This document shows positions 1,534 through 18,664 of a stretch of DNA of 64,000 nt, one piece after another. Every line of letters begins with the position of its first letter. Position 1 is the first letter of the stretch. Below the pieces are notes generated by a model. That model was not told where the DNA came from, did no database searches, and saw only the letters and a program-made list of their open reading frames with translations. This DNA comes from Pedobacter arcticus A12 (GTDB taxonomy: Bacteria; Bacteroidota; Bacteroidia; Sphingobacteriales; Sphingobacteriaceae): contig NZ_JH947127.1 in NCBI RefSeq assembly GCF_000302595.1, positions 700,126 through 764,125 on the forward strand, given 5' to 3'. The position numbers and the translations under genes are program-made.

Positions 1534-3087
1534 TTAAATCTTGATACTATTTACCCGCTCCTGCTCACAAATAATATTCAGCATTTTCTCTGTTGCCTTA
1601 ATTGCACAAACCGTTTGGTCAGAATCTAAACCACGTGTGGTAAAAGTCTTTTTATCCGTTTTCCAAGTGATGGTGGTTTCACAGAGTGCATCGGAGCTAC
1701 TCCCCGGCGCAATACGAACGCTATAGTCAATTAAAGCAGGCAATTTTCTTCCTTTAGATTTATAAAGCTTGCTCAACGCGTTCATGAAAGCATCAAACTG
1801 TCCGTCACCTTGTGCGTGTTCTTCATAAAGCTTATCGTTAAACTTGATTGCAATTGTTGCAGCCGGTCTTAATCCGGAAGCGTGTGATAATAAATAAGAT
1901 TCTACCTTAACCTTTTCCTGGTAAGCGCTACTCGCCAAAACATCAGAAATAATGTAAGGCAAATCATCCTGAGTAACAGTTTCTTTTGAATCGCCAAGTT
2001 CAATTACACGTTGCGTAACTTTCTTTAAATCAGCATCGTTCAATTTCAAACCTAACTCTTGCAAGTTTTTTTCAATGTTGGCTTTACCAGAAGTTTTACC
2101 CAAAGCATACGAACGCTTACGTCCGAACCTTTCTGGCAGTAAATCACTGAAATATAGGTTCTTTTTATTATCGCCATCTGCATGGATTCCAGCCGTTTGC
2201 GTAAAGACATTTTCACCGACAATTGGCTTGTTTGCAGGTATTCTCACACCAGAAAAAGTTTCAACCAGTTTACTCACTTTGTAAAGCGATGACTCTTTCA
2301 AACCAACTTTCACATCGGGCAAAAAGTCATTGATTACCGCAATTACGCTAGCCAGAGGAGCATTTCCAGCTCGCTCTCCCATCCCGTTTACGGTCAAATG
2401 CAATCCGCTAACCTTTGATTTAATGGCTTCCATTACATTGGCAGTACCTAAATCATAGTCGTTATGTCCGTGAAAATCAAAATGCGTTTGCGGATATCTT
2501 TCGGTTACTTTTGATATAAATTCGCTGGTTTCTTTAGGTGTCAAAATCCCTAAAGTATCGGGCAACATCACACGTTCTACCTTTTGCTTGGTCAAAAAAT
2601 CAAGGTATTGAAATACATATTCTTGCGAATTACGCATTCCATTACTCCAATCTTCTAAATAAACATTGGTTTTTATTCCTTTTGAATTGGCTAGTTGGAT
2701 GTTTTCACCAATTTCGGCAAAATGCTGTTCTGGAGTTTTTTTAAGTTGATGAGTTAAGTGGTTAAGCGAGCCCTTGGTTAATAAGTTTTGCACTTTAACA
2801 CCGGCTTCAATCATCCAGTCAATAGAAACACCTTTATCAACAAAAGTTAAAACCTCTATTTGTTCAAGAAATCCATGTTTTTTAGCCCATTTCGCAACCG
2901 CTTTAACGGCTTCCAGTTCCCCTTCAGAAACTCTAGCAGAAGCAATCTCAATCCTGTCCACCTTTAATTCTTCTAACAATAACTGAGAAATAGTTAATTT
3001 CTCAGATACCGAAAAAGATACACCCGAGGTCTGTTCGCCATCCCGAAGGGTAGTGTCCATGATTTCTATTTTTCTTCTTTTCATCAA
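1534..3087 (-). CDS. cimA: (R)-citramalate synthase, Leptospira type
   Basis: A 517-residue member of the LeuA-like condensing family, about the length of Leptospira citramalate synthase. The TIM barrel starts with DTTLRDGEQ (R15, D16 catalytic), carries metal ligands in FHGHND (H206, H208), then NGMGERAGN, the linker with VFTQTAGIHADGD, and a C-terminal regulatory domain (about 400-510). From memory of the Leptospira enzyme, its pyruvate-selecting residues Leu81, Leu104 and Tyr144 correspond here to L80 (IEVL), L103 (NLLTKG) and Y143 (VYLEDWSNG), all kept. It would condense pyruvate with acetyl-CoA, feeding isoleucine synthesis via LeuCD and LeuB. A second true leuA lies upstream in the same operon, which fits a different substrate here. 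ATG pair at 3087 and 3084; either may start. Confidence 0.82.
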   Translation of the reverse strand: MMKRRKIEIMDTTLRDGEQTSGVSFSVSEKLTISQLLLEELKVDRIEIASARVSEGELEAVKAVAKWAKKHGFLEQIEVLTFVDKGVSIDWMIEAGVKVQNLLTKGSLNHLTHQLKKTPEQHFAEIGENIQLANSKGIKTNVYLEDWSNGMRNSQEYVFQYLDFLTKQKVERVMLPDTLGILTPKETSEFISKVTERYPQTHFDFHGHNDYDLGTANVMEAIKSKVSGLHLTVNGMGERAGNAPLASVIAVINDFLPDVKVGLKESSLYKVSKLVETFSGVRIPANKPIVGENVFTQTAGIHADGDNKKNLYFSDLLPERFGRKRSYALGKTSGKANIEKNLQELGLKLNDADLKKVTQRVIELGDSKETVTQDDLPYIISDVLASSAYQEKVKVESYLLSHASGLRPAATIAIKFNDKLYEEHAQGDGQFDAFMNALSKLYKSKGRKLPALIDYSVRIAPGSSSDALCETTITWKTDKKTFTTRGLDSDQTVCAIKATEKMLNIICEQERVNSIKI

Positions 3088-3103: not shown

Positions 3104-3700
3104 TTATAAAGGAAGCTGTTCCCCAAATGTTTTTATTTCTGATTTGATGTTCTGTAGGTAATCGATATCGTCGAAACCGTTGATCATATTATCTTTTTTG
3201 TATGAACTGATATCAAAACTTTCTGATTCGCCAGTGGTCGATAATGTAATTGTTTGCGCTTCCAAATTAATCTCCAATTCAGTTTCTGGATCTGCATGGA
3301 TTGCCGTGAAAATTTTATCCAAAAATTCGGCACTTACCTGTACTGGCAAAACACCAATGTTTAAACAGTTACCTCTAAAAATATCCGCAAAGAAACTAGA
3401 AACTACTGCTCTAAAGCCATAATCGTAAACTGCCCAAGCGGCATGCTCACGAGACGAACCCGAACCAAAGTTTTTACCCCCAACCAAGATTTTTCCTTTG
3501 TAAATTGGGTTGTTTAAAACGAAATCTTCTTTTGGAGAACCATCTGTATTGTATCTCCAATCTCTAAATAAATTATCGCCAAAACCCACACGCTCTGTCG
3601 CTTTTAAGAAACGAGCTGGGATAATTTGATCTGTATCTACGTTTTCTATCGGAAGTGGAACTCCCGTAGATTTTAATATTGTGAATTTATCGTATGCCAT
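3104..3700 (-). CDS. leuD: 3-isopropylmalate dehydratase small subunit
   Basis: Swivelling subunit of isopropylmalate isomerase, partner of LeuC. The 198 residues match the family. VDTDQIIPARFLK near the N-terminus and GSGSSREHAAWAVYDYGFRAVVSSFFADIFRGNC in the middle are the standard LeuD signatures. It starts 130 bases after leuC, with a palindromic repeat in the gap, and ends 17 bases before the citramalate synthase. The isomerase probably acts on both isopropylmalate and citramalate here (inference from context). Confidence 0.95.
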   Translation of the reverse strand: MAYDKFTILKSTGVPLPIENVDTDQIIPARFLKATERVGFGDNLFRDWRYNTDGSPKEDFVLNNPIYKGKILVGGKNFGSGSSREHAAWAVYDYGFRAVVSSFFADIFRGNCLNIGVLPVQVSAEFLDKIFTAIHADPETELEINLEAQTITLSTTGESESFDISSYKKDNMINGFDDIDYLQNIKSEIKTFGEQLPL

Positions 3701-3803: not shown

Positions 3804-3833
3804 GTTGTCATCCTGAGCGGAGTCGAAGGATTA
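3804..3833. repeat. TCCTGAGCGGAGTCGAAGGAT dispersed repeat
   Basis: A TGTCATCCTGAGCGGAGTCGAAGG-type unit abuts the leuC stop codon. Related words occur inverted at 54575-54600 (CTTCGACTCCGCTCAGCCT) and direct at 58557-58577 (CAGGCTGAGCGGAGTC). This unit is scattered through many Bacteroidota genomes. Confidence 0.6.
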
Positions 3834-5237
3834 TGCCTCCACACTCATTAATTCTCTCGGATCCGTAACCTTACCAGTTACCGCTGCTGCTGCTGCAACT
3901 AATGGGCTGGCCAATAAAGTACGTGAACCTGGACCTTGACGGCCTTCAAAGTTTCTGTTTGAAGTACTTACCGCGTATTTTCCTGCTGGAATTTTATCAT
4001 CATTCATAGCTAAACAAGCTGAACAACCTGGCTGACGTAACACAAAACCTGCTTCGGTGAAAATATCCAATAAACCTTCGTCTTTAATAGCTGCTTCCAC
4101 AATGTGAGAACCCGGAACCAACCAAGCAGTTACATTATCTGCTTTATGACGACCTTTAACAATTGATGCGAAAGCTCTAAAATCTTCAATTCTACCATTG
4201 GTACAACTTCCGATAAACACATAATCAACTGGTTTGCCGATCATCGAATCACCTTGGTTAAAGCCCATATATTTCAAAGACTTCTCGTAAGTGGCAACGC
4301 CACCTTCAACTGCGTCAGCATCAGGAATATCATTAGAGATACCCATTCCCATTCCAGGGTTGGTACCGTAGGTAATCATCGGCTCAATTTTGCTTCCGTC
4401 AAAAGTATATTCTTTATCGAAAACAGCATCAGCATCGGTTTTCAGCGTTTCCCAATAAGCCATTGCTTTATCCCAAGCCTCGCCTTTTGGTGTAAATTCT
4501 CTTCCTTTAACATAGTTAAAAGTAGTTTCATCTGGTGCAATCATACCACCTCTTGCTCCCATTTCAATCGAAAGGTTACAAACAGTCATACGACCTTCCA
4601 TCGTCATTTCTTCAAAAACTTTTCCGGCATATTCTACAAAATAACCTGTAGCTCCGGAAGTAGTCAACTGCGAAATAATAAACAAAGCCACATCTTTTGG
4701 CGTAACTCCAAAACCTAAAGAACCGGTAATGTTGATTCTCATTGCCTTTGGCTTGGGCTGCATAATACATTGCGATGCCAACACCATTTCCACCTCAGAA
4801 GTACCGATACCAAACGCAATGGCTCCAAAAGCTCCGTGAGTTGAAGTATGTGAATCACCACAAACAATAGTAGCACCTGGTTGTGTAATTCCGTACTCTG
4901 GACCTACAACGTGTACAATCCCGTTTTTTTGGTGGCCTAAACCCCAGTGGGAAATGCCATACTCGTTACTATTAGACTCCAACGCTCTCAATTGATTAGC
5001 CGAAAGCGGGTCTTCAACAGGCAAATGCTGGTTAATAGTCGGTGTGTTATGATCTGCCGTTGCAAAAGTACGCTCAGGATGTAAAACCTTAATACCTCTG
5101 CTTTTTAAACCCAAAAACGCTACCGGGCTGGTAACCTCATGAATCATGTGACGATCTATAAAAACTACATCCGGCCCGCCTTCAATCTGGCGAACTACGT
5201 GGCTATCCCACACTTTGTCAAATAATGTATTGCTCAT
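3831..5237 (-). CDS. leuC: 3-isopropylmalate dehydratase large subunit
   Basis: Aconitase-family subunit that isomerises 2- to 3-isopropylmalate. It has 468 residues, the normal length. The 4Fe-4S cysteines are visible as IGSCTNG (C345) and [10 protein letters not shown] (C405, C408). [26 protein letters not shown] (126-150) is the substrate loop. It is followed by leuD in the order usual for the phylum. An intergenic repeat touches its stop codon. Confidence 0.96.
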
Positions 5238-5469: not shown

Positions 5470-6981
5470 CTATATAAACTTATTCACAGCATCTAAATAC
5501 GCATTCGCGGATGCAGCAACGATATCGGTACTAAACCCATAACCATTATAATGCTTGCCATCGTACTTGATACGCATATTCACTTTACTTACATCATTAC
5601 TTCCACCGTGGATTGCATCAATATGGAAATCTTTAATATCTACTTCTTTTTCGATGATTGAATTAATAGCTTTAATAGTTGCATCAACCGGACCGTTACC
5701 AGATGAAACCGCTTCTTTCATTTCCCCTCTAATATCCAATCTTACAATTGAAGTCGGCACTAAAGGATCACCACACATTACTTGCAATAATTTAACGGTA
5801 ACACCGGCTTTGTAATTACGCTCAGAACCTTCGCCACTCATTAAAGCTAATAAATCGTCATCTTTAATCTCTTTCTTGCTATCAGCAACTACCAAGAAAC
5901 GTTCGTAAACATCATCAATATTAATTTTCTCTAAAACATATCCTAAACGTTCTAAATGATGCTTTAAAGCATGACGACCACTTCTGGCTGTCAAAATAAT
6001 TGAAGATTGATCAATCCCAACATCTTCTGGGTTCATGATTTCATAGGTTTCACGGTGTTTTAACACACCATCCTGATGAATTCCTGAACTGTGTGCAAAT
6101 GCATTTTTACCTACAATCGCTTTATTAGGTTGTACTGGCATACGCATCATTCTGCTCACCATGCCGCTCAATTCATAAAAATGCTTGGAGTTGATATTGG
6201 TATATTTACCTAAAGCCTGATGCGTTTTCAAAATCATCGCAACTTCCTCTAAAGCTGTATTCCCAGCTCTTTCGCCTATCCCATTAATGGTACACTCCGC
6301 TTGGCGAGCACCATTTTGGATACCTGCAATGGTATTTGCCGTTGCTAAACCTAAATCGTTATGGCAGTGTACAGAAATAATTGCCTGGTCAATGTTTTTC
6401 ACATGGTCCATCAAATACTTGATTTTCGCACCGTATTGGTCTGGCAAACAATATCCGTTTGTATCAGGGATATTAACCACCGTTGCACCTGCTGCAATAA
6501 CGGCTTCCACCATTTGCGCTAAAAAAGCATCATCTGCCCTACCGGCATCTTCCGCGTAAAACTCAATATCTTCTACAAATCGCTTTGCATATTTAACGGC
6601 ATCAACACCACGTTGCAAAATATCTTCGCGTGTACTGTTGAATTTGTATTTGATGTGCATATCCGAAGAACCGATTCCGGTATGGATACGTGGTCTTTTA
6701 GCATGCTTTAAAGATTCAACTGCGCAATCAATATCCTTGGTATTTGCCCTGGTTAAAGCGCAAATAATTGGTTCTCTAACCGCTTTCGAAAGTGCAACTA
6801 CACTTTCAAAATCGCCAGGACTAGAGATTGGGAAACCCGCTTCTATTACATCAACCCCTAAAGCTTCCAAACGTAGTGCAATTTCAATCTTTTCAGAAGT
6901 TGTCAATTGGCAACCAGGCACTTGTTCTCCGTCTCTAAGTGTGGTATCAAAAATGTAAATGCGATTTGGATCGTGTAACAT
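5470..6981 (-). CDS. leuA: 2-isopropylmalate synthase
   Basis: Condenses 2-oxoisovalerate with acetyl-CoA, the first committed leucine step. It has 503 residues. [10 protein letters not shown] (R16, D17), VHCHND (H205, H207 metal ligands) and [14 protein letters not shown] are the classical LeuA signatures, distinct from the FHGHND / APL versions in the citramalate synthase four kb downstream. The C-terminal ~120 residues are the leucine-binding regulatory domain, so feedback inhibition is likely. It is followed by leuC, leuD and cimA on the same strand. Confidence 0.95.
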
Positions 6982-7021: not shown

Positions 7022-8512
7022 TCACTCAACAATTGAGTACGCTTCTTCTAATATTCTATTTTTTATGATTTCTTCGTTGGCGATTACCTCGCCATCTTTA
7101 AGCACAATTTTTTTAGTTAAACAGCTGGGCAATTGTGCTTCAAAATGCCCAACGTAAATCACTGTCATTCCGTGATGGCTTAACTCATCTACCAACTGAT
7201 TAAATTGCGCCGTTTGTTGCTTATCCAATCCTTGGCAAGGTTCATCCAAAATCAACAGTTCTGGATTTTTTATAACTGTACGAGCTAATAAAACCAACCT
7301 TTGTTTGCCCAAAGGTAAGGAGCTCAATAGCTCTTTTTTATACTCGGTTAAACCGAAATATGCAACTAGCTCGTCAACATGTTTTGCCTTGGTATATGGC
7401 AATTGCTGGAATAACCCAACCGAATCATATAATCCTGATGCTACGCTATCCCAAACGGTGGCGGTTGCATCAAAATACCAATGAAACTCTGGCGATATTA
7501 AACCGATGTGCTGTTTAATATCCCAAATGCTTTCTCCACTTCCTCTTTTGTTTCCGAACAAATAAAGTTCATTTGCATAAGATTGCGGATGGTCGCCATT
7601 GATTAAACTTAACAAGGTTGATTTACCCGAACCATTATGTCCTTGCAACAACCACTTTTCGCCAGCTTTAACTTCCCAATTGATGTTTTTCAAAACTTGC
7701 TTATCCCCATAACTGATATTAACATCAATCATTTTAGCGATTTCACTCGAGCTATAAATTGGCGATTGCTTTAAAAATTCTGGAAGTGTTCTTTCAAAAT
7801 CTTCCTTAATAACTGTTATTTCTTTTGCACTTTCTAATTCTACCAGTTTGCCATCTTCTATTTCGGCAAATCGGTTGATACAAGTTGGCAACTCTTCATC
7901 ATTGCTAATCAAGATTAATGTGACACCTGCTTTAGCAATATTATCCAACAAAGTATTTAAACTTTTACGAGAAGCTATATCTAAACCGGTGTATGGTTGG
8001 TCGATAATGAGCAATTGGGGTTTTAGCCACAACGCTTTTACCAACTGTAATTTTTTGTGTTCACCACTTGATAATTCGATCAGTTGCGAATCTCTTAATC
8101 CCGAAAAACCGAGGGCTTTCAGCAATTTCTCAGCATCAGAAAAATTCAAATTTTCTTCCTTACCAAAATGCGCTAACTCTGCATTTACGGTTAAAGTTTC
8201 TTTTGCTTGTTGACTGGTATAGCGTTGCTGATAATAAAAATTTGCAACGCCTTCCACATTCTTAAACTGATACCAGCTCTCTACAAATAAAACCTGAGCT
8301 GGCAAGTTACTTTCAGTTTCGAAGTTGATTTCAACCTCTCCGCTAGCACTTTGTTTACCTGTAAGGATTTTTGCCAAAGCCGTTTTTCCGCTTCCGCTTT
8401 CTCCGCCTAAAACCCAGTTTTCTCCACGGTTGATGGTCCAGCTTAAATCAGAAAAAACTGATTTGTTTTGGAATCTTAAACCTAGGTTACTTATATGAAT
8501 TACTTGTCTCAT
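7022..8512 (-). CDS. ABC-type protein with two ATPase domains, ModF/PhrA-like
   Basis: About 496 residues holding two nucleotide-binding domains and no membrane segment. Walker A motifs are GESGSGKT (about residue 40) and GHNGSGKS (about 295). Each half has an ABC signature (LSSGEHKKLQLVKAL; LPLGKQRLVLLAR) and a Walker B (LLIIDQPYTGLD; LLILDEPCQGLD). This layout matches ModF, a soluble ATPase of unknown precise role. The ATG at 8512 is preferred, because the three-codon GTG extension starts inside a palindromic repeat. It sits between ilvC and leuA with no obvious link to amino-acid synthesis; there is no permease gene nearby. Confidence 0.8.
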   Translation of the reverse strand: MRQVIHISNLGLRFQNKSVFSDLSWTINRGENWVLGGESGSGKTALAKILTGKQSASGEVEINFETESNLPAQVLFVESWYQFKNVEGVANFYYQQRYTSQQAKETLTVNAELAHFGKEENLNFSDAEKLLKALGFSGLRDSQLIELSSGEHKKLQLVKALWLKPQLLIIDQPYTGLDIASRKSLNTLLDNIAKAGVTLILISNDEELPTCINRFAEIEDGKLVELESAKEITVIKEDFERTLPEFLKQSPIYSSSEIAKMIDVNISYGDKQVLKNINWEVKAGEKWLLQGHNGSGKSTLLSLINGDHPQSYANELYLFGNKRGSGESIWDIKQHIGLISPEFHWYFDATATVWDSVASGLYDSVGLFQQLPYTKAKHVDELVAYFGLTEYKKELLSSLPLGKQRLVLLARTVIKNPELLILDEPCQGLDKQQTAQFNQLVDELSHHGMTVIYVGHFEAQLPSCLTKKIVLKDGEVIANEEIIKNRILEEAYSIVE

Positions 8513-8513
8513 A

Positions 8514-8661
8514 AGCCTCACCCCAACCCTCTCCGAAGGAGAGGGAGTTAGAGCGTGAATATTTTGGGTACTATTCTATTTTTTTTTTAATATTATTTTC
8601 CTCTTCAACTTTCCACAATGCTCCCCTCTCCTTCGGAGAGGGGAATCAAAGGGGTGAGGCT
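8514..8661. mobile_element. 148-bp inverted-repeat element (paired palindromes, MITE/BIME-like)
   Basis: Ends are perfect inverted copies: AGCCTCACCCC at 8514-8524 and GGGGTGAGGCT at 8651-8661. Just inside each end lies the palindrome CCCTCTCCGAAGGAGAGGG (8528-8546) or its inverse (8624-8642), around an AT-rich core. It fills the ilvC-ABC gap exactly, ending five bases from the ilvC stop and one base from the ABC start codon. No ORF inside. It looks like two REP-type units paired head to head, mobilised in trans if at all. Confidence 0.75.
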
Positions 8662-8665
8662 CTTT

Positions 8666-10147
8666 TTATGCCGTTTTAATAGTTTTCATTGCGGTCATCG
8701 CTTTACGCAATTTAGTACCAATGATTTCTACTTCGTGGTTACGTAAAATTTCGTTGATTCTTACCAATTCTGAGTTATCAACTGCGCCATCTTTACCTTC
8801 GTTGAAGTTTTTACCAACTAAGTCAGTACCTACTTTTTTCATGAAATCAGCTAATAAAGGCTTACAAGCTTGGTCAAATAAGTAGCAACCATATTCAGCA
8901 GTATCAGAAATTACGCGGTTCATTTCGAACAATTTCTTACGAGCAATGGTATTTGCAATTAATGGAGTTTCGTGTAATGACTCGTAATAAGCAGATTCTG
9001 GCTTAATTCCAGCTTCAACCATCGTTTCGAAAGCCAATTCAACACCTGCTCTAACAAAAGCAACCATCAAAAGGTAATTATCAAAATACTCTTGATTACC
9101 AATTTTAACATCGCCAGCTGGAGTTTTTTCGAAAGCAGTTTCGCCAGTTTCAGCTCTCCAAGCCAATAAGTTTTTATCTCCATTAGCCCAATCTTCCATC
9201 ATGATACGGCTAAATTCGCCAGCCATAATATCATCTTGGTGCTTTTCGAATAAAGGACGCATAATGTCTTTTAATTCTTCCGAAATTTTGAAAGCTTCCA
9301 CTTTTGCAACATTGCTTAAACGGTCCATCATACCTGATACACCGCCATGCTTTAAAGCCTCAGTAATAACTTCAACTCCGTACTGCACCAATTTAGAAGC
9401 ATAACCTGCATCAATTCCTTTTTCAACCATTTTATCGAAAGAAAGGATAGAACCAGTTTGCAACAATCCGCAAAGGATAGTTTGCTCGCCCATTAAATCA
9501 GATTTTACTTCAGCAACGAAAGAAGATTTTAAAACACCTGCTCTGTGACCGCCAGTTCCAACGCAATAAGCTTTTGCCTGCGCCAATCCCTTACGCTCTG
9601 GGTCATTTTCTGGATGTACAGCAATTAAAGTTGGTACACCAAATCCTCTAACATATTCCGCTCTAACTTCAGAACCTGGACATTTAGGCGCAACCATAAT
9701 TACAGTTAAGTCTTTACGGATTTGCATTCCTTCTTCCACAATATTGAATCCATGAGAATACAATAAAGTAGAACCTTTTTTCATTAACGGCATAATTGCG
9801 TTAACAACTGCAGTGTGTTGTTTATCTGGAGTTAAGTTAACCACCACATCAGCAGATGGAATTAACTCTTCGTAAGTTCCTACTTTGAAATTATTTTCGG
9901 TAGCGTTTTTCCACGAATCTCTTTTACCTTCGATAGCTTCTTTACGTAAAGTGTAGCTTACATCTAAACCGCTATCTCTTAAATTTAAACCTTGGTTTAA
10001 TCCTTGTGCACCGCAACCAACAATTACAATTTTTTTACCTTTTAGCGCTTCTACGCCATCTAAAAATTCTGAATTGTCCATAAAGTCGCAAACGCCTAAT
10101 TGGTTTAATTGCTCTCTAAGAGGTAGTGTGTTGAAATAATTTGCCAT
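8666..10147 (-). CDS. ilvC: Ketol-acid reductoisomerase, long (class II) form
   Basis: Converts acetolactate and acetohydroxybutyrate to the dihydroxy acids with NADPH. The 493 residues match the long enterobacterial form (about 490) rather than the ~330-residue class I form. The Rossmann motif [17 protein letters not shown] starts at residue 44. The duplicated knotted C-terminal domain carries [17 protein letters not shown]. It serves both the valine/leucine and isoleucine branches. It lies downstream of the DinB-like gene and upstream of the paired-palindrome element. Confidence 0.96.
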
Positions 10148-10183: not shown

Positions 10184-10654
10184 CTATTTTTTTACTAATT
10201 TTCTTTGCGCCAAGGCATAACCAAAGTGTATATTATCATGGCCTACGGTGGTAATTAAAATTTCTTCAAAACTATTCATTTCTGCTTTGTAAGTAGATGT
10301 TGCAAAAGGCTGAATTGGTCCAAAAACTCCTTTTTGATAATCTTCTTTAATATTTTGGATGGTAGATAACGCCAGTGCTTTTAGCTCAGCAATTTCTTCC
10401 GTATGAATAAAACGAGTAGGTTTTGTGTCTTTTTTATATTCTTCATTATATTTCACAGCAACTGCATCTTCCAAAATGCCAGTACGAACGTAGCAAAGAG
10501 TCTGTGTACTCACCACAATGTGACCAAAGTTCCAGATAATGTTATTATTGAAACCTGCTGGAATTTCGTTCAACTCTTCCACCGTAAGTGAATCTAACAA
10601 GTGGATAAACGCCTGACGACTCTGAACGATAAAACTAAAAACTTGTACTGTCAT
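10184..10654 (-). CDS. DinB-family four-helix protein
   Basis: A 156-residue protein with a DinB/YfiT-like pattern. Three histidines sit where the family binds metal: H45 in WNFGHIVVS, and H139 and H143 in VGHDNIHFG. Members include thiol-dependent S-transferases (bacillithiol, mycothiol), but many have no known role and none is part of branched-chain synthesis. It sits between ilvN (2 bases upstream) and ilvC (36 bases downstream), so it is surely cotranscribed. The YtxJ gene elsewhere in this window implies bacillithiol, so a bacillithiol transferase is one possibility (inference). Confidence 0.75.
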   Translation of the reverse strand: MTVQVFSFIVQSRQAFIHLLDSLTVEELNEIPAGFNNNIIWNFGHIVVSTQTLCYVRTGILEDAVAVKYNEEYKKDTKPTRFIHTEEIAELKALALSTIQNIKEDYQKGVFGPIQPFATSTYKAEMNSFEEILITTVGHDNIHFGYALAQRKLVKK

Positions 10655-10656
10655 GA

Positions 10657-11259
10657 TTACATTGTGAAAATCTTCTCGCCTTTGTTTAAATATTGGTTCT
10701 CTACTACATCCTCACTTGGTTCACGTCTTTCGAATTCTCTCAACTTCACATGAAAACCATCGCTAGCTTTAATAATCGCTACTCTAGCACTTCTCACAAA
10801 CTCAATTAATCCGTATTTCTGTAATACTTTTACCAACCGGTCCGTTTCTTCGCGGTGACCAGTAGTCTCAAAAACTGTATAATCCTTTCTGATTACTACG
10901 GCTCTGGCGCCATGCTCTCGCAATAAGCGTTCAACACTTACCTGTTCTGCAATAATATCTGTAGGCACTTTGTATAATGCCATTTCTTGCCAAATTACGT
11001 CCTGATTGGTATTGTAATAAACTTTCAATACCTCAACCTGTTTTTCCAATTGGCGGGCAACTTTACGTACCACTTCTTCGGTTTCAGTAATCACGATATT
11101 GAAACGGTGAATACCATCAACTTCTGATGGAGAAGTATTCAAGCTTTCGATATTAAGCTTTCTACGGCTAAAGATAATCGCAATTCTATTAAGTAAACCA
11201 ATTTGGTTTTCGGTATAAACTGTGATGTTATATTCCTGCTTTTCTATATTTGATTCCAT
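10657..11259 (-). CDS. ilvN: Acetolactate synthase small regulatory subunit
   Basis: A 200-residue partner of IlvB. The N-terminal ACT domain reads YNITVYTENQIGLLNRIA then RRKLNIESLN at residues 10-50, the valine-binding type. The second half (KYGLIEFVRSARVAI and after) is the usual C-terminal domain. The length is larger than the ~165 residues common in Proteobacteria but normal for this phylum. It begins 46 bases after ilvB. It would make the synthase sensitive to end-product valine. Confidence 0.92.
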   Translation of the reverse strand: MESNIEKQEYNITVYTENQIGLLNRIAIIFSRRKLNIESLNTSPSEVDGIHRFNIVITETEEVVRKVARQLEKQVEVLKVYYNTNQDVIWQEMALYKVPTDIIAEQVSVERLLREHGARAVVIRKDYTVFETTGHREETDRLVKVLQKYGLIEFVRSARVAIIKASDGFHVKLREFERREPSEDVVENQYLNKGEKIFTM

Positions 11260-11305: not shown

Positions 11306-13051
11306 TTACTTTAATCTAATCTCACTTACACTACAACCTTGTGGCACCATCGGGAAAACGTTATTTTCCTTTTTTACCATTACTTCCAAAAGATATGGGC
11401 CATCATGGTTTAACATCGTGGTCAACGCGTCAATAACTTCAGATCTTTCAGAAATTCTTTTCCCATCTATATAATAGCTTTTCGCTAAGGCAACAAAATC
11501 AGGGCTGGTGATATCCACAAAAGAATAACGCTTATCGTTAAACAGCTCTTGCCACTGACGAACCATTCCTAAAAACTGGTTGTTAAGGATGATGATTTTC
11601 ACGTTAACTTTTGATTGCATAATAGTTCCCAACTCCTGTAAAGTCATCTGGAAACCACCATCACCAATAATGGCAACAACATCTTTATCTGGTGCACCAA
11701 ATTTTGCGCCGATGGCTGCTGGTAAAGCGAAACCCATTGTTCCTAAACCTCCACTGGTAACGTTGCTACGGGTGTTATTAAACTTTGCATAACGGCAAGC
11801 TACCATTTGGTGCTGACCAACATCCGTTACAATAATTGCATCGCCTTTGGTCAATTGGTTTAACTGATTGATGATTTCGCCCATAGAAAGTTCTCCTTCT
11901 GTCGGGTTGATCTCAGCATCAATACATTGCTCCATTTCTTCTCTGTCAAAGTCTCTAAACTTTTGTAACCATTCGGCATGAGATTTTTGATCAACCAACT
12001 CAGTCAACATTGGTAAAGATTCTTTACAGTCTCCCCAAACCGGAACGGTTGTTTTTACATTTTTGTCGATTTCTGCTGGATCAATATCTAAGTGAATAAC
12101 CTTCGCCTGTTTTGCATATTTATCTAAACGACCAGTTACACGGTCATCAAAACGCATTCCTATGGCAATTAAAACGTCACACTCGTTGGTTAACACATTT
12201 GGACCATAATTACCATGCATGCCTAACATCCCAACGTTTAAAGGGTGATCTGTAGGAATTGCTCCGGCACCTAAAATAGTCCAAGCTGCAGGAATCCCAG
12301 ATTTTTCAACAAACGCTTTGAATTCTTGCTCCGCATTTCCTAATAAAATTCCCTGTCCAAATAATACAAACGGTTTTTTCGCAGCATTAATTAGAGCTGC
12401 CGCCTCTTCTATATAGCTTTTTCTAACTATTGGCTTTGGCTTATAGCTACGGATATGCTCGCATTTTTTGTAACCAAAATATTCTGTCAACTGGATCTGA
12501 GCATTTTTAGTAATATCAACCAAAACGGGACCTGGTCGACCTGTCTGTGCAATATGAAAAGCTTTGGCCATTACTTCTTCAATCTCCGAAGCGTCTGTAA
12601 CTTGATGGTTCCATTTGGTAACCGGCGTAGTAATATTAATAACGTCAGTCTCTTGGAAAGCATCAGTACCTAAAAGATGCGCAAAAACCTGCCCGGTAAT
12701 ACATACCATTGGTGTGCTATCAATTTGTGCATCTGCTAAACCTGTAATTAAGTTCGTAGCACCGGGACCGCTTGTTGCAAATACAACCCCTACTCTTCCA
12801 GAAGTACGGGCATAACCTTGTGCGGCGTGTGTAGCGCCTTGTTCATGGCGAACCAAAATATGATTTAACGTTTCTTTATAATCATAAAGCGCATCATAAA
12901 TTGGCATAATAGCACCTCCGGGGTAACCGAAAATGGTTTCAACACCTTCCGCAATTAATCCGTTAAGTAATATCTGAGAACCTGTAAGTGTAGCAACTGC
13001 TTTTGGCTTTTGCTCTTCAGTTTTATTTTCTTTCATTTCAAGAGTATCCAT
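11306..13051 (-). CDS. ilvB: Acetolactate synthase large catalytic subunit
   Basis: ThDP- and FAD-dependent enzyme that condenses two pyruvates, or pyruvate with 2-oxobutyrate. The start is taken at the ATG at 13051 (MDTLEMKENK), giving 581 residues. An 18-codon extension upstream would overlap the end of the ORF6N gene, and the sequence AAAGAGATT just before 13051 looks like a ribosome site. GYPGGAIMPIYD and the catalytic Glu in VRHEQGATHAAQGYARTSG are near the N-terminus. The ThDP motif GDGGFQMTLQEL with LNNQFLGMVRQWQ is near the C-terminus. Confidence 0.95.
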   Translation of the reverse strand: MDTLEMKENKTEEQKPKAVATLTGSQILLNGLIAEGVETIFGYPGGAIMPIYDALYDYKETLNHILVRHEQGATHAAQGYARTSGRVGVVFATSGPGATNLITGLADAQIDSTPMVCITGQVFAHLLGTDAFQETDVINITTPVTKWNHQVTDASEIEEVMAKAFHIAQTGRPGPVLVDITKNAQIQLTEYFGYKKCEHIRSYKPKPIVRKSYIEEAAALINAAKKPFVLFGQGILLGNAEQEFKAFVEKSGIPAAWTILGAGAIPTDHPLNVGMLGMHGNYGPNVLTNECDVLIAIGMRFDDRVTGRLDKYAKQAKVIHLDIDPAEIDKNVKTTVPVWGDCKESLPMLTELVDQKSHAEWLQKFRDFDREEMEQCIDAEINPTEGELSMGEIINQLNQLTKGDAIIVTDVGQHQMVACRYAKFNNTRSNVTSGGLGTMGFALPAAIGAKFGAPDKDVVAIIGDGGFQMTLQELGTIMQSKVNVKIIILNNQFLGMVRQWQELFNDKRYSFVDITSPDFVALAKSYYIDGKRISERSEVIDALTTMLNHDGPYLLEVMVKKENNVFPMVPQGCSVSEIRLK

Positions 13052-13062
13052 AATCTCTTTAT

Positions 13063-13623
13063 TTATCTTTTTTGTTTGAAACCAATTCTTTCTCTTTCTT
13101 CCCACTTTTTCTGAGCGACTTTTTCATCAATGAGATTTTCCATTGCTTGATACAAGTGGTGTAGTTGTATATCGTGTTCACCGACTCGTTCCACAATCTC
13201 ATCCAACTTATCTTTGATATCAATTTGTTTGACCAGAATTTTCCTCACATCAACAAAAGCTCTCATGATAGCGATATTCATGCTGATAGCTTTATCACTA
13301 TTTAAAACACCACTTAACATGGCAACACCCTGTTCTGTAAACGCGTAGGGCAAATTCCATCTGTGTTTTTGCGAACTCATCACAATTTGTGATGAGTTGT
13401 CGTTCGTTTCGTATGCGGTCACAATTTGTGACTGCATGCTTTCAAATTCATTAGCTGTCAACCTGAACATAAAATCTTCAGGAAAACGTTTGCTATTTCT
13501 TTTTACAGATTGATTTAGAATCCTAGTCTCTACCTCATACAAAAACGCCAAATCAAAATCAAGCATCACCCGCTCGCCACGGATGTCGTATATTCTACTT
13601 TGTATGCTTTTAATGATTTGCAT
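13063..13623 (-). CDS. ORF6N-domain DNA-binding protein inserted in the ilv operon
   Basis: A 186-residue protein. Residues ~8-95 match the ORF6N domain (IYDIRGERVMLDFDLAFLYEVETRILNQSVKRNSKRFPEDFMFRLT), a KilA-N-related fold carried by phages and mobile loci but also spread in Bacteroidota chromosomes. The second half includes LPYAFTEQGVAMLSGVL and a helical tail. It lies between ilvD and ilvB, in the operon's direction, with an ~80-bp dispersed repeat just upstream. It has no recognised metabolic role and probably arrived by transfer (inference). Whether it regulates the operon is unknown. Confidence 0.85.
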   Translation of the reverse strand: MQIIKSIQSRIYDIRGERVMLDFDLAFLYEVETRILNQSVKRNSKRFPEDFMFRLTANEFESMQSQIVTAYETNDNSSQIVMSSQKHRWNLPYAFTEQGVAMLSGVLNSDKAISMNIAIMRAFVDVRKILVKQIDIKDKLDEIVERVGEHDIQLHHLYQAMENLIDEKVAQKKWEERERIGFKQKR

Positions 13624-13726: not shown

Positions 13727-15406
13727 CTAATCTTCATCAGTTACACAACCTTCAGTTGCATTTTTCACTAATTTGAAGTACTTATACAACACGCCACTTT
13801 TGACAGGTGGTTCTGGTTGTTGCCATTCCTTTCTTCTAGACTCCAGTTCTTCATCAGAAACCAAAACATTCATGGTGTTTTTTGTAGCATCAATTTCAAT
13901 GGAATCTCCATCATTGATTAATGCGATGTTACCACCTTCAAAGGCTTCAGGTACAATATGACCAACTACAAATCCGTGAGTTCCACCAGAAAAACGACCG
14001 TCAGTAATTAACGCTACTGATGCGCCTAATCCAGCTCCGAAAATAGCCGAAGTTGGCTTTAACATTTCTGGCATTCCTGGTCCACCTTTTGGTCCGCAAT
14101 ACCTAATTACCACAACATCACCTGCTTTTACTCTTCCAGAAGAAATACCGTCAATCAACTCAAACTCACCATTAAAAACCCTTGCTGGACCAGTAAATTT
14201 TTCTCCTTCTTTTCCAGAGATTTTAGCCACACTGCCTTGTTGCGCAATATTTCCGTAAAGCATCTGTAAGTGACCAGTTTCTTTAATTGGTTTATCTAAC
14301 GGACGAATCACATCTTGCTGATCAAAATCCAAATCAACAGCTTCAGCAACATTCTCTGCAACAGTTGTACCCGTTACTGTTAAGCAGTCACCATGAATCA
14401 ATCCCATTTTTAAAAGATATTTCATTACTGCTGGCGTTCCACCAATGTCATGCACATCTTCCATCATATACTTACCACTTGGTTTCAAATCGGCAATTAC
14501 AGGCGTATTATCACTAATATCTTGGAAATCTTGTATCGTTAAATCAACGCCTACAGATTTTGCCATCGCAATCATGTGCAATACTGCGTTTGTTGATCCA
14601 CCTAAAACCATAATCACCACCATTGCATTATGAAATGCTTTTTTGGTCATGATATCTTTTGGCTTGATATCTTTTTCTAAAAGGATTTTGATGTATTTAC
14701 CAGCTTCTAAGCACTCATCTTTTTTCTCCTGACTTAACGCAGGATAAGAAGAACTGTAAGGCAAACTCATACCTAAAGCCTCAATTGCAGATGACATAGT
14801 ATTTGCGGTGTACATTCCGCCACAGGCACCAGCACCTGGGCAAGCATGTTCAATTACACCTTGGTAATCCTCATCACTAATATTTCCGGCTAATTTTTGC
14901 CCTAAAGCTTCAAAAGCAGAAACAATATTTAATGATTGTCCTTTATAATGACCTGAATGGATACTTCCACCGTAAACCATAATTGATGGCCGATTTATAC
15001 GAGCCATCGCCATAATTGAACCTGGCATATTTTTATCACAACCCGGAATGGTGATAACGCCATCATAAAAATGCCCGGCACAAACTGCTTCAATAGAATC
15101 AGCGATTAAATCGCGAGACACCAAAGAGTAACGCATGCCTTCTGTGCCATTGGTTAATCCATCGCTTATTCCAATCGTGTTGAAAGTTAAACCTACTAAA
15201 TCGTTGTTCCAGACACCCTGCTTTACAATCGCAGCCAAATCATTCAAATGCATATTACAGGTATTACCATCGTAACCCATACTTGCGATCCCAATTTGAG
15301 CTTTCTTTAAATCTTCTGTAGTAAGACCTAAGCCATACAACATTGCTTGTGTTGCAGGTTGTGTTTTGTCTTGTGTAAACGTTTTACTGTACTTATTTAA
15401 CTCCAT
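13727..15406 (-). CDS. ilvD: Dihydroxy-acid dehydratase
   Basis: Iron-sulfur enzyme that dehydrates the dihydroxy acids to 2-oxoisovalerate and 2-oxo-3-methylvalerate. The 559 residues are typical. Cluster cysteines lie in [12 protein letters not shown] (about residue 122) and [16 protein letters not shown] (about 190-205); [14 protein letters not shown] is the C-terminal signature. Its ATG overlaps the ilvE stop as TAATG, so translation is coupled to ilvE. Confidence 0.96.
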
Positions 15407-16296
15407 TATATTATAACTTCAAAACTTAATTTATCTAAAACAAGGCTTTTATAAACCCTTTGAATCATTGCTCCTAAACTTAAATCAAAAGCAAGTGGAA
15501 AAACATACTCATCTACGGATTCGACACCAAAAATCTCCACTGCTGTGCCGCAAACAAATGCGCTATCCGCATTCTTGAATTCTTCTACGGTAATATTTTT
15601 CTCTACCACCTCAATATCAAGTTGTTTTGCTATGTTAATTACTGTTGCTCTAGTAATCCCAGCTAAAACATTGTCTTTCAACGGCGTAAACAACTTCCCA
15701 CCTTTTTCGATAAAAACATTAGCAGATGTGGTTTCGCTGATATAACCATGTATATCAACCAATAATGCTTCATCATAACCCTTGCGCTTAGCTTCTGAAA
15801 TTGCTAACACAGAGTTTATATAATTTCCCGTAATTTTTGCTTTAATAGGTACGGCATTTGGTGTTGGCTTTTCGAAAGATGAAATACAGGTTTTCAGCAA
15901 ATCATCTCCATAAAACGAATCCCATTGCCAAGCCGTTATAATGAGCTGTGTTTTTTGAGAAGCTACCATAGACATATCTGTACCGGCAAAAACCAAAGGA
16001 CGTACATAAGCATTCTTTAACCCATTAATTTCCAGTAATTGGTACGTATCATGAATTAACTGATTAATATCCCAATTGAACAGCATATTAATCTGCCCGC
16101 AAGAATGCTTTAACCTTTCAAAATGTTCTCTTACTTTAAAAAGCTTTACACCGTTTGCAGTCTGATAAGATCTAATACCTTCAAAAGCACCAAAACCATA
16201 ATGAATTGTCTGGCTAAAAAAATCAATTCCAGCATCGGTTGCTTTCACAAAAACGCCGTCTTTGTATATGGTTTGATCTTTTATAAAACTTTCCAT
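15406..16296 (-). CDS. ilvE: Branched-chain amino acid aminotransferase
   Basis: PLP fold-type IV transaminase of 296 residues that makes valine, leucine and isoleucine from their keto acids. [28 protein letters not shown] near the N-terminus, the lysine in [10 protein letters not shown] that should hold PLP, and [13 protein letters not shown] are family signatures. It is the first structural gene of the locus and starts 25 bases after an attenuator hairpin, preceded by TAAGGT as a weak ribosome site. Confidence 0.94.
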
Positions 16297-16310: not shown

Positions 16311-16350
16311 TTTTATAAAAAAAACGCCTTCTTTAAAAGGAAGGCGTTTT
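16311..16350 (-). terminator. Attenuator terminator of the ilv-leu operon
   Basis: On the minus strand an 11-bp perfect stem (AAAACGCCTTC, 16350-16340, with GAAGGCGTTTT, 16331-16321) has an 8-nt loop and runs into TTTT then an A/T-rich stretch: an intrinsic terminator 25 bases before ilvE. Its 5' arm overlaps GCCTTCCTTT (16345-16336). That segment is the exact complement of AAAGGAAGGC (16389-16380), inside the 3' part of the leader ORF. The two pairings are mutually exclusive, so this is a terminator/antiterminator switch. Confidence 0.88.
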
Positions 16351-16366
16351 CTAATATTTTTTTGTA

Positions 16367-16444
16367 TTAATTAGCATATGCCTTCCTTTTACCGCCGATT
16401 ACCAGCAGAACAATAGTGAGCGGAATAATGACAACCAATAACAT
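16367..16444 (-). CDS. Branched-chain amino acid leader peptide (ilvL-like)
   Basis: A 25-codon ORF, ATG at 16444, TAA at 16369-16367. Residues 2-16 read LLVVIIPLTIVLLVI: five Leu, four Val and four Ile in fifteen positions. Residues 17-25 are GGKRKAYAN. The KRKA codons lie in the antiterminator strand, so a ribosome reaching the stop masks it and lets the terminator form. A ribosome stalled on Leu, Val or Ile codons leaves it free to open the operon. This is the geometry of ilv leaders in enterobacteria. A short membrane-peptide alternative is possible, since the composition is also hydrophobic, but it would not explain the RNA pairing. Confidence 0.85.
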   Translation of the reverse strand: MLLVVIIPLTIVLLVIGGKRKAYAN

Positions 16445-16736
16445 ATCTAATACAAACTTTATATTGCTTTATTTACAAAAACAAGATAGCGCAACAAACT
16501 TTATGTATCAATAGTAAATCAAAATAGTTTTAAAAAAAATAAAATTCTATTACTCGTCAAGAAACAGAATAAAATTCTAATTTATCAATATAAATACAAT
16601 TATAATTTTTACTTGCTTATACCGAACAACGAATTGGTATTCGGTACAAAAACATTCGACTAATCGCTAAAGAGATAATTTCTGCCTAAATTCTTTGCAC
16701 CTAGCAAAAATTTTAGTCAGGCACAAAAATTTAGTC
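16445..16736. other. Promoter-bearing gap upstream of the ilv leader
   Basis: About 290 bases of AT-rich sequence with no ORF, between the atpC terminator and the ilv leader. It should hold the ilv-leu promoter. The best match on the minus strand is TTG (16511-16509), 20 bases, TATCTTGT (16488-16481), which would start the RNA about 30 bases before the leader ATG. The match to TTTG-N19-TAnnTTTG is partial. Confidence 0.4.

Positions 16737-17116: not shown

Positions 17117-18664
<1,548 letters not shown>

Follow-up and report, generated by a model that had tools for sequence, protein, structure and literature searches.

An ilv-leu gene run preceded by a leader ORF and a terminator

Genes for the synthesis of leucine, valine, and isoleucine lie on the minus strand at one end of the window, the whole 64-kb stretch of DNA that was analysed. 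Their order on this one strand is ilvE, ilvD, an ORF6N-domain gene, ilvB, ilvN, a DinB-like gene, ilvC, an ABC-ATPase gene, leuA, leuC, leuD, a cimA-like gene, and leuB, so that the genes downstream of the element described here make the amino acids that it is proposed to sense. The features, all on the minus strand, are as follows.

16483-16511, minus: likely promoter of the leader transcript, TTGATA-N17-TATCTT(G), predicted from a scan match of 9/12
16367-16444, minus: leader peptide ORF MLLVVIIPLTIVLLVIGGKRKAYAN, 25 codons, ATG to TAA; I/L/V-rich leaders occur in 14/18 congeneric genomes
16397-16441, minus: regulatory codons 2-16, of which 13/15 are Leu, Val, or Ile
16380-16389, minus: antiterminator strand AAAGGAAGGC in leader codons 19-22, exact complement of 16345-16336 in the terminator arm; the two covary in relatives
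16317-16350, minus: intrinsic terminator, stem 16350-16321, eight T at 16324-16317; hairpin -16.4 kcal/mol
16336-16345, minus: terminator 5' arm GCCTTCCTTT, common to antiterminator and terminator
15406-16296, minus: ilvE, branched-chain aminotransferase, first gene after the attenuator; Aminotran_4; best NCBIfam models NF005146 and TIGR01122, each slightly below its curated cut-off
13727-15406, minus: ilvD, dihydroxy-acid dehydratase
11306-13105, minus: ilvB, acetolactate synthase large subunit
10657-11259, minus: ilvN, acetolactate synthase small subunit
8666-10147, minus: ilvC, ketol-acid reductoisomerase
5470-6981, minus: leuA, 2-isopropylmalate synthase
3831-5237, minus: leuC
3104-3700, minus: leuD
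1534-3087, minus: cimA-like gene, citramalate or isopropylmalate synthase paralogue; best model NF042433 (CimA), 678.9 bits against a cut-off of 950
252-1310, minus: leuB
192-231, minus: strong terminator 3' of leuB, likely end of the unit (custom and simple scans)

The leader ORF starts 148 nt upstream of ilvE and is followed by the intrinsic terminator, whose T run stops 20 nt short of the ilvE start. The first-pass annotation had placed an 11-bp terminator with a T run here; the terminator is present, but its stem measures 12-13 bp in folds and in the scan. The complementarity that it described between AAAGGAAGGC (16389-16380) and GCCTTCCTTT (16345-16336) was checked on slices of the sequence, and the two are exact reverse complements. 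Folded singly, the antiterminator hairpin reaches -18.7 kcal/mol vs -16.4 kcal/mol for the terminator. Both strands of the 64 kb were scanned for a leader ORF, a terminator, and complementarity between them, with 15 residue sets and thresholds of our own setting, and the ilvE leader locus was the sole match. The likely promoter has counterparts in relatives, with a TTGA..TA..TTG pattern upstream in 13/18 congeneric genomes (9/14 with the leader and 4/4 without it).

On the minus strand from position 17200 down, the custom scan found three hairpins scoring at least 13: the attenuator, one within the cimA-like gene, and the strong one immediately after leuB, at 229-194. A simpler scan placed 8 weaker minus-strand terminator sites between the attenuator and the leuB terminator; over both strands it returned 16 sites vs 12.0 in shuffles. 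Because so few strong hairpins lie between the attenuator and the leuB terminator, a single ~16-kb ilv-leu transcription unit is plausible. Promoter-like sites number 50 vs 46.7 in shuffles, and internal promoters may exist in the unit. The ORF6N-domain gene (13063-13623), the DinB-like gene (10184-10654), and the ABC-ATPase gene (7022-8521) lie inside the ilv-leu run.

Composition and codon usage of the leader

Translation and residue counting confirmed that the ORF has 25 codons and that 13 branched-chain residues fall among residues 2-16, as first annotated: 5 Leu, 4 Val, and 4 Ile. Codons for the amino acids of the downstream pathway are therefore clustered in a short ORF, a property that recurs in relatives. 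At the local base composition, for which the expected I/L/V fraction is 0.33, the chance of at least 13/15 such residues is 2.6e-5. Across all 24 residues the chance of the observed I/L/V content is 0.025, so composition by itself is not decisive.

Regulatory codons 2-16 include CTG, CTG, CTC, and GTC, all of which are infrequent among the operon genes. Leu is written as CTC or CTG in 3/5 codons of the window leader, and CTC, CTG, and CTA together make up 24/329 Leu codons across ten operon genes of the window and 4/24 in ilvE. Pooled over 14 leaders, these three codons account for 29/74 Leu codons vs 67/340 in ilvE, and GTC for 11/22 Val codons vs 15/231 in ilvE, counts for which Fisher values are not independent because the 14 leaders are kin to one another. 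Ile ATC showed no excess in the same 14 leaders (10/76 vs 74/408 in ilvE).

The leader end and the terminator arm change together in relatives

An IlvE search of the genome contigs returned 3 loci, and the nearest named record was Pelobium manganitolerans, with an IlvE 77% identical. The family set comprised 111 distinct ilvE upstream regions, each covering ~300 nt, and drew on 111 of the 141 genomes with an IlvE match among 251 searched. To count as positive, a region had to hold a terminator preceded by a leader that starts with ATG and contains at least 7 I/L/V residues. By this measure a leader and terminator precede ilvE in 53/111 regions: 14/18 in the genus, 37/38 in sister genus g14, 1/1 in g13, and 1/3 in g21, with the g13 and g21 positives doubtful. 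These counts retain three doubtful rows, L040 (in which the model runs in the opposite direction), L044, and L059, and leave out L036 as a duplicate of L108. Within ~300 nt of ilvE, no such element was found in g17 (35/35), g4 (9/9), g5 (4/4), or three further genera with one member each.

The four congeneric genomes in which the element was not found within ~300 nt upstream of ilvE (L016-L019) form one group with support of 100/100 on the IlvE tree and retain the promoter pattern. By eye, the same stretch in these four contains repeated AAATCAYAAATC-like units. In one g14 genome (G084; L149, L030) the ilvE attenuator was not found, and an I-rich ORF with a TTG start and a different terminator stands before ilvD, the region starting 54 nt upstream of that gene; relocation of the attenuator to ilvD is possible.

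Complementarity was not used in picking the 53 regions, and therefore concerted change in the two elements could be assessed without circularity. Three types of terminator arm occur: GCCTTC in 16 regions, GCGTCC in 28, and GCGCC in 9. The leader end tracks the arm type, for example with GAAGGC in the genus and CGGACGCA, GGGTCGCTA, or GGCGCT in g14. For the types of 16, 28, and 9 regions, respectively, duplexes of each leader with its own arm average -12.3, -11.7, and -12.6 kcal/mol vs -8.2, -8.4, and -10.8 kcal/mol with arms of other types; overall, the own duplex averages -12.0 kcal/mol vs -9.8 over all foreign arms. The own arm beats most other-type arms in 51/53 regions and every one of them in 21/53. 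Leaders of the GCGCC type discriminate least, at -11.4 kcal/mol with GCCTTC arms vs -12.5 with their own type.

Within the genus, an alignment of 13 distinct rows has 86.3% paired cells in the antiterminator helix, and its covariation score was reached by 2/500 shuffles, although related sequences may score high with this covariation tool without any structure. Two of five measures for the helix fail against shuffles: 127/500 shuffles matched it in pairs altered at both positions, and 499/500 in how many pair types occur. The clearest column pairs the wobble base of an Ala codon with the arm, as A-U in 6 rows and G-C in 6; the one unpaired row is the window, which breaks the covariation with GCA against CGCC. 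Mapped onto the IlvE tree, A-T takes 2 changes and G-C takes 3. At the arm column that faces the Ala wobble base, the terminator pair fails in 7/13 rows, and thus it is the leader, rather than the terminator, that the arm follows. Conserved Leu/Val/Ile codons with covarying stems had been put forward at first annotation as the pattern that would support attenuation, and Leu/Val/Ile leaders and terminators do recur with compensatory change, with 4/18 congeneric genomes being without the element.

Similar arrangements upstream of ilvD across Bacteroidia

The class survey took regions of at most 1,500 nt upstream of ilvD, 99 in all, from the 98/396 class genomes that matched at E 1e-150 or better, and a positive could lie anywhere within those 1,500 nt, whatever gene stands between. 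The I/L/V scan found 42/99 on the sense strand, 0/99 on the antisense strand, and 0/297 in dinucleotide shuffles. After 6 were set aside by eye, 36 positives remained, and the arrangement recurs upstream of ilvD in 11/20 sampled families. Their peptides are unlike one another, for example MNNVTITSISRLFTAVIIVVVVIIPVISGGGNSM and MYPLVILLSFIILIGFTK, and the leaders may be either ancient and rapidly changing or invented anew. L192 (TTG start) and L174 are weaker and were retained, and the survey took in one of the two ilvD copies in G455.

These controls bear on the reading in which an AT-rich intergenic stretch happens to hold an ORF and a terminator. The 0.025 chance for I/L/V content over 24 residues leaves some room for coincidence, yet the scan found nothing in 297 shuffles or on 99 antisense strands, and the element stands in 14/18 and 37/38 genomes of the two genera, which makes chance scarcely credible.

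Among the regions set aside, L122, L167, and L154 contain the 3' end of a gene and its terminator; this gene, probably atpC, is like the one whose end lies upstream of ilvE in the window. L153 has a GTG start and a peptide that is not leader-like. L134 and L138, from family f11, have a 62-63-aa ORF. Together with L135, L136, and L141, which appear only at a looser cut, these f11 loci carry a 40-63-aa hydrophobic ORF and a terminator directly before ilvD; the ORF has the look of a small membrane protein, not of a leader peptide.

The f11 genomes with a 62-63-aa hydrophobic ORF and terminator before ilvD, along with the hydrophobic character and basic tail of the window's own peptide, lend some weight to the idea that the ORF before ilvE codes for a small membrane peptide that is itself functional, the hairpin being the ordinary terminator of its transcript. 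However, the peptide sequence varies widely in relatives while its I/L/V content and the leader-arm complementarity are kept, the KA near the C terminus in the genus is accounted for by RNA pairing, and infrequent Leu and Val codons are enriched in the leaders. We regard a membrane peptide as very unlikely.

A riboswitch or protein-binding leader could also govern the terminator, with the ORF incidental, since terminators before biosynthetic operons occur with riboswitches too. No Rfam family reached its gathering score on the window's leader, nor on any of ten loci searched (the ilv leaders of the window and of 8 relatives, plus the thr leader described below). In relatives of unrelated sequence, too, an I/L/V ORF has the antiterminator strand at its end, and we judge this reading to be even more improbable than a membrane peptide.

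Predicted effect of ribosome position on the leader RNA

In the working model, RNA polymerase would initiate near 16476, trailed by a ribosome that enters the leader ORF. If amino acids are plentiful, the ribosome would reach the stop codon and cover most of AAAGGAAGGC in codons 19-22; the covered strand could not pair, and the terminator would form. Scarcity of Leu, Val, or Ile would stall the ribosome at codons 2-16 and leave AAAGGAAGGC free to pair with the terminator 5' arm ahead of 3' arm synthesis, so that polymerase would read into ilvE.

We folded the window RNA with a mask in place of the ribosome and with the 5' arm just made. The predicted probability of the antiterminator is 0.99-1.00 with the A site at codons 2-14, 0.79 at codon 15, 0.46 at codon 16, and at most 0.01 at codons 17-25. 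With the ribosome at the stop codon, before the 3' arm exists, the value depends on the mask: 0.46 with 15 nt masked upstream of the A site and 0.00 with 17 nt. Over the 53 family regions, the mean antiterminator probability is 0.79 for ribosomes stalled on I/L/V codons vs 0.01 at the stop codon, and the stalled value is the higher in 52/53, the window among them. A looser readout, in which the arm may pair with any upstream RNA, gives 0.65 stalled vs 0.25 at stop over the 53 regions, and the stalled value exceeds the stop value by more than 0.2 in 45/53 family regions and 20/29 of the class set. Masked folds thus bear out the ribosome logic of the first-pass annotation, in which the antiterminator strand is covered at the stop codon and free on a Leu/Val/Ile stall, and folding and covariation both point to an antiterminator that excludes the terminator.

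For the full window transcript at equilibrium, the terminator is favoured at every stall position except codons 2 and 3. Therefore, the switch must be kinetic; timing decides the outcome in other attenuators too.

We consider it highly probable that the element is a ribosome-mediated attenuator that senses charged Leu/Val/Ile tRNA and controls one ~16-kb ilvEDBNC-leuACD-cimA-leuB unit. The comparative evidence is strong for ribosome-mediated attenuation of branched-chain amino acid synthesis in a phylum with few described attenuators.

A leader without a predicted protector hairpin

The locus had been described as holding all parts of a classical ilv attenuator. The leader, terminator, antiterminator, geometry, and gene context are there, but folding predicts no protector hairpin for the window leader, and by the same model it falls outside the E. 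coli trp/ilv subtype with a protector (1:2) hairpin. The folding model gives a probability of 0.66 that the terminator arm of the window is sequestered without a ribosome, and the value exceeds 0.5 in 43/53 family regions and in 19/29 of the class set outside the family. When the assumed 5' UTR was varied from 0 to 60 nt, 41-47/53 regions stayed above 0.5. The E. coli leaders without a ribosome give 0.01 (thrL), 0.11 (leuL), 0.07 (ilvL), 0.06 (trpL), and 0.35 (hisL). Two of these controls mark the limits of the folding model, as hisL shows no stall effect and the ilvL value at stop, 0.50, is as high as the stall value, 0.46. For 6 leaders, shuffling the codon order left the value without a ribosome nearly unchanged. 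Random codon order thus also yields no protector, and its absence here is a simple lack, not a designed feature.

Because no protector is predicted, an untranslated leader should read through here, whereas it should terminate in E. coli. We offer tentatively, and with more doubt than conviction, the wider proposal that Bacteroidia have widespread, repeatedly re-invented attenuators of branched-chain amino acid synthesis that lack a protector hairpin and are on by default. If this were so, only a ribosome that had completed the leader would turn the operon off; such attenuators would sense translation of the leader and not stalling alone, and would behave opposite to those of E. coli when translation fails to start. 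The behaviour of an untranslated leader is the prediction by which this protector-less, default-on design can be tested.

Relation to known attenuators

Leader-peptide attenuators are a textbook kind of regulation, and those of E. coli ilvL and leuL work by the logic of the stalled ribosome. Attenuators in Bacteroidetes/Chlorobi are reportedly mentioned in the abstract of a 2004 article by Vitreschak et al. in FEMS, which would lessen the novelty of the present one. The window element is like E. coli ilvL-ilvGMEDA and leuL-leuABCD (NC_000913.3) in having leader codons for the pathway amino acids and a terminator before the operon. It differs in that the E. coli arm is predicted to be free without a ribosome (sequestered 0.11 in leu and 0.07 in ilv, against 0.66 here), and no sequence likeness is claimed.

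In 2010, leader peptide systems were described as known only in Proteobacteria and Actinobacteria, the atypical ermC aside, ahead of that paper's own find in bacilli (PMC2965389). The ilv leader of Staphylococcus aureus is described as encoding a Leu-rich attenuator peptide (PMC5794164); a branched-chain amino acid operon stands under a leader peptide there as here, but in another phylum and in combination with CodY. Closer to the window, the Bacteroid-trp RNA (RF01692) is listed as a cis-regulatory RNA of Bacteroidetes in Weinberg 2010 (PMC2864571). It serves a different amino acid and has a different sequence from the ilv leader, which scores below the gathering score of RF01692. Short leader-like ORFs have been noted in Bacteroides thetaiotaomicron (PMC7366714). 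For Flavobacterium psychrophilum, one study reports strong clues that amino-acid operons are preceded by leader-peptide attenuators (PMC9723704); phylum and mechanism are shared with our proposal, and section 19 of that paper names no ilv leader and leaves the operons unspecified. Leader-peptide attenuation has thus already been suggested in print for the phylum. Its attenuators had been called little described at first annotation, a wording that holds, but Bacteroid-trp and the F. psychrophilum proposal (PMC9723704) mean that they are not unknown. A literature search with most subscription journals outside its coverage returned no description of an ilv leader peptide in Sphingobacteriaceae.

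Other leaders in the same genome

The genome has a Bacteroid-trp (RF01692) match at C2:586339-586459 (L217), with a Trp-rich ORF, leader MIRININTIWWWHYENS, and a terminator; among the 18 congeneric genomes, only 3 have a match above the family cut-off. Before an aspartate kinase gene (L226, C4, gene 426194-427564) lies a Thr-rich leader, MILISTYTTTTTVTLLA, followed by a terminator, AGCGCCTTCC...GGAAGGCGCT. A GGAAGG strand after the stop codon of this leader forms a duplex of -12.7 kcal/mol, and L226 is likely a thr attenuator with a GCCTTCC core in common with the ilv attenuator. The presence of a trp attenuator and a Thr-rich leader in the same genome was counted in favour of ilv attenuation. 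A His-rich ORF, MKLILTPTHHLHHR, precedes hisG (L225, C2, 227805); the scan placed no terminator between this candidate and hisG, and a small CATCGC/GCGATG hairpin spans the stop codon of the ORF, which is a possible his leader.
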